From Campylobacteraceae bacterium (GTDB lineage Bacteria > Campylobacterota > Campylobacteria > Campylobacterales > Sulfurovaceae): 45,236 nt of DNA. The first letter of the stretch is position 1. Every line of letters starts with the position of its first letter. The position numbers and the translations under genes were made by a program. Location: NCBI GenBank assembly GCA_027080995.1, contig JALWNT010000067.1, positions 1-45,236 on the forward strand, given 5' to 3'. Below the pieces are notes generated by a model. That model was not told where the DNA came from. It worked only from the letters and a program-made list of their open reading frames with translations, and did no database searches. Shown here piece after piece: positions 31,685 to 34,343 of this stretch.

Positions 31685-32086
31685 ATGACCAAGGAATCGG
31701 AAGAGACTACGCTGCCCATCCGTGAAGAGGAGGGGTACGACTTTCGTTTCGATCCCAACGCCTGCGCCGCCTGTGAAGGGGCATGCTGTCGGGGAGAGAG
31801 CGGTTACATCTGGATGAAGTTTCCAGAGATCGAAACGATGGCGGCCTATCTGGAGATGACGACGGAGGATTTCGCTAGAATCTACCTTCGCAAAGTGGGA
31901 CATCGATACTCCCTGACCGAGAAGCGGCTGGGGGAGGAGGATTACGCCTGCATCTTTTTCGATGAAACGAAGAGACGATGCAGCGTCTATCCGGTGCGTC
32001 CGCGGCAGTGTCGTACCTTTCCCTTTTGGGAACAGTTCAAAAACGATGACGAGGAAGTGAGGAAAGAGTGTCCGGGTATTTTGTAA
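31685..32086 (+). CDS. YkgJ-type cysteine-cluster protein
   Basis: The 133-residue cytosolic protein carries the family cysteines: CAACEGACC near residues 28-36, CIFFD and RCSVYPVRPRQCRTFPFW further on, and a last Cys in KECPG. The pattern suggests binding of zinc or an iron-sulfur cluster; the role is unknown. Its end overlaps the TPR protein by 19 nt. It lies 9 nt after the methyltransferase and likely forms an operon with both. Confidence 0.9.
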   Translation: MTKESEETTLPIREEEGYDFRFDPNACAACEGACCRGESGYIWMKFPEIETMAAYLEMTTEDFARIYLRKVGHRYSLTEKRLGEEDYACIFFDETKRRCSVYPVRPRQCRTFPFWEQFKNDDEEVRKECPGIL

Positions 32087-33366
32087 AAGCGGGAAAACAT
32101 GCCATCCTTCTTGGCTGCCTTTTTGCAGCGGTTCAGGGTCTCCAGGCACGCTCGACGTCTTTCGACGAAGATACGGCGATCGTCCGAGGATTGCTGGATG
32201 AAGAGGGGGGAAATTACGCCCGGGCACTGCCGATCTTTCTGCAGCTTTACGATCGCACCGGAAAGACGGAATACCTGATACACGCCGCACGATTGGGCAT
32301 GGGAGTCAAAGGGGCGCAGAAGCGGCTCATTGCACGTCTGAGAAGCTGGCTGCGTCGGCATCCTAAAGCGACTCCGGTACATCAGGAAGCGGTACGGCTT
32401 TTGGTAATACTCTATGCCAGAAACGGTGCGTTGGATCGGGCGTATCGCACGGCGAAACGCTGGCTTTCAAAAAGCACGGATCCGAAAGATTTGATCTTGG
32501 CAGCGACGTTGGACGTCGATCTCAAACACTACAAAGAGGCGGTCAATCTGCTGGAGAGTGCCTACGGAAAAACGCTGGACGAAAAGACGCTCCTGCAGAT
32601 CGCCACCCTCGAAGATCACTATCTTCACAATCCGGAAGCGGCGATCACTCTGCTCGAGAGTCATTTGCGGATGCATCCGCAAAGCGATCCTTTGATCTAT
32701 GAGCGTTTGATCGGACTCTACGCCCGGCAGAAACGTTTCGACAAAGTGCTGGATCTCTATCGGCAAATGTACGATCGGTATCCGAGTGAAGCGCTCAAGC
32801 AAAAGATCATCAAACTCGCTCTCTACCAAAGGGATTTTGAAGCGTTGACAAAATTTCTGCAACGGCATCCCGGGAACGAACGCCTGCTCTATTCGCTCTA
32901 CAAAGAGCAGAAACGCTACGGTAAGGCACTCGCTTTGGCGAAGCGACTCTATGCACAGACGCATCAGCCCCGCTGGTTGGCCGAAGAGGCGATTCTCCTC
33001 TACGAAGAGGCGAAGGCGCAAAAGAGGGTCACCCCGAACGTTTTGCAAAAATTCCGTGCGCTTTTCGACCGGGCGCTGAAAGAGGGGGCGGACGACAGCC
33101 TCTATCTGAACTATTACGGCTACACGCTCATCGATCACGGCCTGGACATCGACCGGGGGATCGCTCTGGTGCGCCGGGCGCTCACGCAGCAGCCGAACAA
33201 TCCCTATTACCTCGATTCGCTCGCCTGGGGCCTTTACAAGAAAGGCGAATGTGCCCGGGCGAAAAAGGTGATGGAGAAAGTCGTCGCGGCCGGGGAGATC
33301 AAAGAGCCCGAGATCGAGATGCACCGCAAAAAGATCGAACGTTGCGCCCAACACAGCGTGAAATGA
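32068..33366 (+). CDS. Exported TPR-repeat protein
   Basis: The 432-residue protein begins with a signal peptide (KHAILLGCLFAAVQG) and continues as a string of helical hairpins of the tetratricopeptide type (RALPIFLQLYDRTGKTEYLI; AITLLESHLRMHPQSDPLIY; ALALAKRLYAQT; LDSLAWGLYKKGE). Such proteins scaffold envelope complexes; no catalytic residues are visible. The start is GTG 32068 with AGGA nearby. It overlaps the YkgJ-type gene by 19 nt. A possible terminator-like palindrome follows at 33403. Confidence 0.88.
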   Translation: MSGYFVKAGKHAILLGCLFAAVQGLQARSTSFDEDTAIVRGLLDEEGGNYARALPIFLQLYDRTGKTEYLIHAARLGMGVKGAQKRLIARLRSWLRRHPKATPVHQEAVRLLVILYARNGALDRAYRTAKRWLSKSTDPKDLILAATLDVDLKHYKEAVNLLESAYGKTLDEKTLLQIATLEDHYLHNPEAAITLLESHLRMHPQSDPLIYERLIGLYARQKRFDKVLDLYRQMYDRYPSEALKQKIIKLALYQRDFEALTKFLQRHPGNERLLYSLYKEQKRYGKALALAKRLYAQTHQPRWLAEEAILLYEEAKAQKRVTPNVLQKFRALFDRALKEGADDSLYLNYYGYTLIDHGLDIDRGIALVRRALTQQPNNPYYLDSLAWGLYKKGECARAKKVMEKVVAAGEIKEPEIEMHRKKIERCAQHSVK

Positions 33367-33402
33367 TAAACGACAATGGATCGAGTCTCCCGGAAAGGAA
33401 CC

Positions 33403-33492
33403 GGTTTCACTCGCTGACTTTGGCAGTCGCTAATGCCGTTGGCACCCCTGAGGGGCAGGCGCTCCTTTGTCGCCATCGAGTGAAACCTTTTT
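33403..33492 (+). other. Branched palindrome with terminal T-run
   Basis: GGTTTCACTCG (33403-33413) pairs with CGAGTGAAACC (33477-33487), a perfect 11-bp stem, followed by TTTTT. Inside lie three small hairpins: GGCA/TGCC (33422-33437), CCCC-TGA-GGGG (33445-33455) and GGCG/CGCC (33458-33474). It may end transcription of the TPR gene, but the shape is much larger than needed for a terminator. Confidence 0.65.
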
Positions 33493-33542
33493 GGACGTTC
33501 TTTGATGGGTTTAATTGATATTCTAATGAGAAAAGGGTTCTA

Positions 33543-34343
33543 ATGGCCGATATTTTGGATGAAATCATACGCAAGACACGCAGCGATCTTCAAAAGCGCA
33601 AGGCAGAGTATTCGATGGATTGGCTGGGGCGGTCGCTCTCGTTCAACCCCTTCGTCCCCAGGGATGTCCATGGAGCGCTGCGCTCTACTCCGGACAACCC
33701 CTACCGGATCATCGCCGAAATCAAAAAGGCGAGCCCCTCGAAAGGAATCATACGGGAGGATTTCGATCCGTTGGTGATCGCCCAGGCGTACGAGAAGGGG
33801 GGAGCCGACGCCCTCTCGATCCTCACCGAACCCCACTGGTTCAAAGGGGACGTGGAGTATCTGGGGATGGTGCGCCGCTACGTGGGGATTCCGCTGTTGC
33901 GCAAGGACTTCATCATCGACAAATACCAACTGGTCGAGGCGCTCGCTTTCGGGGCGGACTTCGTCCTGCTTATCGCCAAAGCCCTCAGCCGCAAAGAGCT
34001 CAAAGAGCTTCTGGAGTACACCTGGCATCTGGGGATGGAGGCACTGGTGGAGATCCACGACAAAGGCGATTTGGTCAAAGCGATCTTCGCCGGAGCCAAC
34101 ATCATCGGGATCAACCATCGCAACCTCGAAACCTTCGAGATGGATATGCAACTGAGCGAGCGGTTGATTCCTCTGATCCCCAATTCCAAAATCATCGTCG
34201 CCGAAAGCGGGATCAACGATCACGAGACCGTCGTCGAGCTTTCGAAAATCGGTGCGGACGCCTTTCTTGTCGGAGAACATTTTATGCGCCAGGAGGATAT
34301 TACCTCCGCACTAAGAAAGCTCAAGTACGGTGAGGAAAGATAA
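33543..34343 (+). CDS. trpC: Indole-3-glycerol phosphate synthase
   Basis: The 266-residue enzyme closes the indole ring in tryptophan synthesis. It is a TIM barrel with the signature [15 protein letters not shown] (about residues 56-70), [20 protein letters not shown] with the catalytic Lys, [12 protein letters not shown] and VAESGIND. It is a monofunctional TrpC of normal length. It stands alone, away from other trp genes, which is usual in this phylum. Confidence 0.97.

Follow-up and report, generated by a model that had tools for sequence, protein, structure and literature searches.

Here we describe a family of MITEs, one copy of which lies upstream of trpC in the 45,236-nt stretch of Campylobacteraceae DNA analyzed (referred to below as the window). 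The family is dispersed and multi-copy, with terminal inverted repeats and 4-bp target duplications, and we consider it probable that the window element is a MITE copy carrying a selected, RNA-like module. A transposase acting in trans, an orientation bias arising at the replication fork, and a passenger role at trpC would complete this reading. MITEs are usually regarded as worn transposon ends with an interior of no value. Here the interior is the conserved part, with a branched fold, strict loops, and an orientation that follows replication rather than genes.

The window copy occupies the gap between a TPR protein gene, ending at 33366, and the trpC ATG at 33543. As the initial annotation described, an 85-nt unit is closed by a perfect 11-bp stem (GGTTTCACTCG at 33403-33413 with CGAGTGAAACC at 33477-33487) and directly followed on its 3' side by TTTTT at 33488-33492, 50 nt ahead of the trpC start. 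The annotation also placed three 4-bp hairpins within the stem and read a rough tRNA-like outline. The plus-strand MFE structure of 121 nt (-46.7 kcal/mol, z -2.40, 4/200 shuffles equally good) does hold three hairpins within the stem, but of 10, 4, and 5 pairs. Two of the annotated hairpins correspond to family hairpins, TGCC/GGCA to P4 and CCCC/GGGG to P3, with the third falling outside the consensus, and the 11-bp stem is the outer portion of a 16-bp helix, P1, on the opposite strand. The tRNA outline is superficial, as the annotation suspected, and a tRNA or tmRNA identity was discarded with ARAGORN calling 0 genes in the window. Taken as a single sequence, the window fold is only moderately unusual; the above-chance signal is supplied by its homologs. 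Features of the region are listed here, with the parts of the core given on its folding strand.

32068-33366, plus strand: TPR protein gene, left neighbor (Pfam TPR_14, 46.4 bits)
33383-33512, minus strand (the core's folding strand): whole element, ~130 bp, from comparison of the flanks with the family consensus
33383-33397, plus strand: left terminal inverted repeat, worn, GAGTCTCCCGGAAAG; consensus GAGTNCTCTGAAAAA, from the family ends
33403-33487, minus strand: conserved structured core, 85 nt (covariance model R1)
33472-33487, minus strand: P1 5' arm, GGUUUCACUCGAUGGC; 14/16 P1 pairs double-changed among 38 cores
33467-33471, minus strand: 5' side of the internal loop, GACAA; columns invariant or nearly so in alignment A2, and most distant copies keep the loop
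33461-33466, minus strand: 5' side of P2, AG[GA]GC, with tandem G.A mismatches (core alignment)
33445-33455, minus strand: apical hairpin P3, CCCC-UCA-GGGG, read from the sequence; same position across the family
33435-33443, minus strand: apical hairpin P4, GCC-AAC-GGC; two pairs vary on both sides (columns 33/42 and 35/41)
33425-33430, minus strand: 3' side of P2, GC[GA]CU (core alignment)
33419-33424, minus strand: 3' side of the internal loop, GCCAAA; family consensus GCCAGA, with the same column evidence as the 5' side
33403-33418, minus strand: P1 3' arm, GUCAGCGAGUGAAACC; 15/16 pairs formed in the window copy, read from the sequence
33498-33512, plus strand: right terminal inverted repeat, worn, TTCTTTGATGGGTTT; consensus TTTTTCAGAGGGTTC, from the family ends
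33543-34343, plus strand: trpC (indole-3-glycerol phosphate synthase), right neighbor (Pfam IGPS, 285.4 bits)

The limits of the window element were taken from the family alignment, since its ends are worn (68% identity to the consensus on the left and 52% on the right) and the bases outside them are unmatched, the putative duplication reading GATC/AATT. The right repeat of this copy gave no match in a pattern search allowing 3 mismatches. Covariance model R1, whose training set includes the window copy, scored it at 93.1 bits on the minus strand versus 18.6 on the plus strand. Neither the window hairpin nor 13 related loci reached the Rfam 15 gathering cut-off, and permissive Rfam matches to the window, the distant copies, and the long form were chance-like. 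The only gathering-level match in these searches was an unrelated c-di-GMP-I-GGC riboswitch at 2008-2084 on the minus strand (60.3 bits), followed after ~360 nt by a large, incomplete ORF that is likewise on the minus strand (1650 down to 1).

Well-preserved copies elsewhere are ~131 bp long and have the terminal inverted repeats GAGTNCTCTGAAAAA...TTTTTCAGAGGGTTC. Target duplications could be tested in 55 of 166 filtered copies, whose flanks are distinct and whose two ends each differ from GAGTNCTCTGAAAAA/TTTTTCAGAGGGTTC by no more than 4 mismatches; the remaining copies had worn ends or a missing flank. An exact 4-bp duplication was present in 30/55 (shuffle mean 8.3, with 30 reached in 0/2000), and exact 5-bp windows reached 10/55 at most. 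At the TPR-trpC site, the element is found in the window genome and in the relative G005. In six other relatives (G001, G003, G004, G006, G008, and G009), a short, element-free gap separates the TPR gene from trpC, and in G011 the gap is longer and lacks the core; the comparison gave no match in G007 and G012 and only a fragment in G002. This pattern of presence and absence suggests an insertion at trpC. A mobile palindrome had been one of three proposals in the initial annotation, and the many genomic places of the family, its target duplications, and the element-free relatives support it.

The element has no coding capacity, as the core is 83, 84, 85, or 86 nt long depending on the copy, which would put a common reading frame out of register; these variants speak against a minus-strand protein reading (ATG GCG ACA AAG GAG ...). 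A DDE-type transposase supplied in trans may have moved the element. A DDE_Tnp_1 (PF01609) parent transposase was found in 0/7 genomes, and there was no transposase domain among 10 recurring neighbor proteins, eight of which have non-transposase domains and two no domain. Association with a particular neighbor gene was also rejected: the largest cluster comprised 9/192 loci with a representative lacking a Pfam match, and the bat cluster reflects an orthologous site.

In its own genome (1.97 Mb in 127 contigs), the family occurs at 23 distinct places by nucleotide search (E below 1e-4), counting some that are halves or fragments and with pieces grouped by hand. With the own genome included, 14/60 relative genomes match at E <= 0.001, so the search for further copies proposed with the initial annotation was positive at both levels. 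A pattern scan of named genomes returned at least 114 stretches. Among the 80 scan matches listed, 75 are in bins labeled Sulfurovum, Nitratifractor, or Campylobacteraceae, and based on these labels we take family f1 to be the Sulfurovum/Nitratifractor family. The other five listed matches (L116, L117, L121, L145, and L186) are from other phyla and were taken as chance; L186, the sole one to pass the copy filter, was excluded from most counts and retained in the 166. R1, for which the out-group control failed, matched 15/398 genomes of the order, a count that includes the own genome and has 13 members in f1; the two outside f1, G072 and G102, match weakly and belong to two further Campylobacterales families. 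Within genus g4, 32/78 genomes have 1 to 25 R1 matches apiece, and among genomes drawn from the phylum 7/397 match, own included and all in f1. There was no match to an exact pattern in viral contigs, nor to a single 146-base copy used as query against plasmids and phages. Copies from related genomes are not independent in these figures, and were reduced solely in the distinct-stem and flank-cluster counts.

The core is best described on the minus strand, where it consists of the 16-bp P1, an internal loop (GACAA/GCCAGA), P2 with its tandem G.A, and two apical hairpins. From 121 distinct short cores, 40 were chosen by divergence (L045, L159, and L182_4022 left out); alignment A1 contains 37 of these (without L061, L083, and L201), and alignment A2 contains 38, with L178 added to A1 by hand. 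Across the 38 diverse cores, 96.0% of P1 and P2 cells are paired on the minus strand versus 85.4% in shuffles, and sliding the partner by 1-3 columns lowers pairing to 28-38%. Covariation in the alignment was also above the shuffled level, with 15/21 pairs changed on both sides versus 6.0 in shuffles (0/500 as high) and 67 double-changed cells versus 9.9. Unrelated P1 sequences, such as TCCATGAAAGAATGGC, GTTTTTTAAACTATGC, and GCTCCAAAGAGAGTGC, pair near-perfectly around identical loops. In the aligned sequences, then, the stems turn over completely, with pairing and loops kept.

The folding strand is read as minus since wobble pairs are kept there. In 77 distinct close stems the ratio of G.U to A.C on the minus strand is 36:16 at P1 positions 1-13 and 67:3 at positions 14-16, and in 35 distinct distant stems it is 22:7 and 35:1, a count that omits the distant L296-L302 and L323, whose P1 is shorter or bulged. 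The P2 tandem mismatches are G.A on the minus strand and T.C on the plus strand; in L178 (1506-1589) they are replaced by Watson-Crick pairs (AGGUGC/GCACCU). The minus strand is also the more stable in 30/38 RNA folds. The inner pair 27/60, by contrast, favors the plus strand. The structured small RNA that the initial annotation allowed for is compatible with the covariation and the G.U pairs, though it would be formed by the strand opposite to the one annotated.

A long form of the core was found in 17 distinct copies of 163-170 nt, with an extra domain at the position of P4. This domain includes a hairpin with an invariant GCAG loop, in which 7/9 pairs are changed on both sides and there are zero G.U pairs. 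Overall, 97.1% of cells in the long-form structure are paired, and its alifold energy is slightly better on the plus strand (-96.8 versus -95.2 on the minus strand). Helix-supporting covariation, by which structured RNAs are recognized, is present in both the short and the long forms.

The core appears in several different settings. Of 30 loci gathered by the right end alone, 22 hold it. Outside f1, the core of G102 lies between long perfect or near-perfect repeats, built on CTGATGTTACGCACTTT in 4/5 copies, and that of G072 lies between AGCTTATATTATGCAA; in both genomes 0/200 shuffles were as good, and the shuffle test of ends was clear only in these two. The outer repeats of the G102 copies L297-L301 differ from one another in matched pairs, resembling one long kept hairpin. 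The outer sequence in G011 is different again, and its copy-by-copy tests were mostly not significant. Clear terminal repeats around the copies of G011 and G016 and the single-site Sulfurovum copies were looked for by the same test and mostly not found. Several Sulfurovum copies without significant ends occupy gaps that are orthologous between genomes. In one such gap, flanked by a TPR gene and batD in Sulfurovum-type genomes, the core is found at eight loci (L133, L190, L263, L265, L276, L336, L337, and L340, the last cut ahead of the left gene), always oriented alike. Its P1 has six different sequences there, of which two resemble each other; this could reflect either stem turnover in an ancient copy or insertion on more than one occasion. 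The gap between a helix-hairpin-helix gene and gltX contains the core in four loci, and further sites are the gap separating a pair of hsp20 genes, the hslV-hslU gap (AAA and proteasome domains), and a position next to infB. Neighbor genes were named from the Pfam matches of cluster representatives.

The family could also be an ordinary MITE with a functionless core, its inner conservation reflecting recent spread. The identical 85-nt core in many G001 and G006 copies fits this, as does the patchy distribution, with 46/78 genomes of genus g4 lacking a match. We judge it quite unlikely, however, given that copies from different genera, and copies with unrelated ends, retain the loops. Pairing and loops are, in addition, independent of end wear (Spearman -0.02 and 0.09, n=144 close copies), a biased comparison in that copies were found and filtered via the core, which also raises the figures of 98% P1 pairing and 98% loop identity.

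Copies are oriented with respect to replication. In three single-contig genomes, 18/20 copies have the strand annotated as plus running along the fork (p = 4e-4), with dnaA at the first bases, the terminus assumed opposite, and two hits that overlap at 1.148 Mb in G011 counted as one. Since two locus pairs in G226 and G034 are orthologous, a cautious count is 16/18. Another 93 copies have enough flank to be scored for skew, and the plus strand is on the G-rich strand in 70 (L040 is in both this set and the 20 fork copies). When similar flanks were merged, 53 of 69 scored clusters agreed with the skew (53:16), and 42/49 where |skew| > 0.04. Gene direction does not explain this orientation, as the element follows the skew 25:6 where the gene-rich strand opposes it. 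The bias may arise through loss of copies that place the more stable minus-strand hairpin on the lagging-strand template, or alternatively through insertion at replication forks.

The fork orientation suggests a process on single-stranded DNA and bears directly on the chief rival to a selected RNA-like module, a palindrome acting purely at the DNA level. Here a transposase or a protein of replication would recognize the hairpin or cruciform in its DNA form, with no RNA involved, and template switching in replication would keep the arms identical and generate the paired changes. Near-perfect stems are in keeping with this, as are the complete lack of G.U in the GCAG-loop hairpin and the matched-pair variation of the G102 outer repeats, and such arm correction could yield perfect stems without selection, which weighs against our preferred reading. 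Arm correction leaves unexplained, however, both the G.U pairs kept at P1 14-15 in unrelated stems and the conserved unpaired loops. The strands also differ little with DNA parameters, with the minus strand more stable in 25/38 and means of -20.2 versus -19.6. On balance, we regard the DNA-only explanation as unlikely, though a serious competitor. A module selected as a folded single strand may account for these observations, most simply if it is an RNA from the minus strand; transcription of that strand is favored because the G.U pairs are kept on it.

At trpC itself, and in most tandem gaps that hold distant copies, the plus strand is the mRNA sense strand; the mRNA at trpC would therefore lack the minus-strand fold, which weighs against our preferred reading. 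Two functions in the mRNA were considered. The first, a complex terminator in the initial annotation, is intrinsic termination or attenuation of trpC transcription, as might be expected from the stable stem and the TTTTT behind it at 33488, 50 nt ahead of the gene. As a family property this did not hold up: the 3' side is T-rich (5 or more T among the 8 nt that follow the core) in only 29/165 copies on the plus strand and 39/165 on the minus strand, and copies occur in tandem, divergent, and convergent gaps. A terminator pattern scan was silent at this site, which is uninformative because it allows only loops of 3-8 nt. This function is hard to credit, keeping a slight probability for the window copy taken alone.

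The second is a cis translational switch, in which the Shine-Dalgarno of the next gene is covered by CUCCUUU, an anti-Shine-Dalgarno-like word in the plus-strand mRNA. The word is conserved in close cores, and the window copy is within the trpC leader. Distant copies in tandem gaps, several of them Sulfurovum copies at orthologous intercistronic sites, mostly have the plus strand as mRNA sense (11 versus 1 antisense). Close copies in tandem gaps, however, are split between 38 sense and 34 antisense (from a count of 199 copies, with 73 unassigned and 3 called within an ORF), and P2, including the CUCCUUU word, is changed in many distant copies. We therefore find such a switch very improbable. 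Nothing specific supports a role at trpC, where the copy is lineage-specific and its ends are worn, and the element probably rides there as a passenger, making the gap longer.

The family resembles bacterial MITEs such as ERIC, RUP, NEMIS, and Nezha, named in PMC3733652, in being short and non-coding with terminal inverted repeats and many intergenic copies, and in having strong secondary structure without a transposase of its own. It differs from these in a module of conserved loops and variable helices common to elements with unrelated ends, and in copies oriented by the replication fork. Our literature search found no report of this family, or of such a module or fork orientation in MITEs. 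Like RNA motifs from Rfam and comparative genomics, the core has conserved loops, covarying helices, and long and short forms. Unlike Rfam classes, it reaches the cut-off of no Rfam 15 family, its copies are mobile and numerous, and its status as an RNA is predicted. A term search of PMC2864571, on comparative-genomics RNA motifs, gave no match.

We tentatively propose, with somewhat less than even confidence, that the core is a new Campylobacterales class of structured RNA or single-stranded DNA with 85-nt and ~165-nt forms, an independent, fork-oriented module in MITEs with unrelated ends that works at DNA replication or is filtered by it. If the fold is an RNA, it would be an undescribed class with up to 25 copies in some genomes; if it acts as DNA, the family would offer a natural test of palindrome survival at the fork. 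Both readings can be tested in cultures, as three complete carrier genomes are among those searched.

REP elements are a further point of comparison. In PMC3733652, these are hairpins of 20-40 bp with an unpaired GTAG or CGTC tag, and both the GTAG and CGTC superfamilies are listed in Sulfurovum sp. NBC37-1. REPs and the present family are both dispersed palindromes in the same bacterial group, and CGTC/GTCATTCC-like cargo occurs within the same MITE ends. The ~131-bp element, with its branched core and ends without a GTAG or CGTC tag, falls outside the REP definition. The cargo was recognized by eye in L226, L250, L254, and L255, which have the same ends around a CGTC/GTCATTCC-like palindrome instead of the core. 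The MITE ends seem to carry interchangeable palindromes. L235 (~1465-1515) is a ~50-bp derivative in which both ends are present and the core is deleted between the arms.
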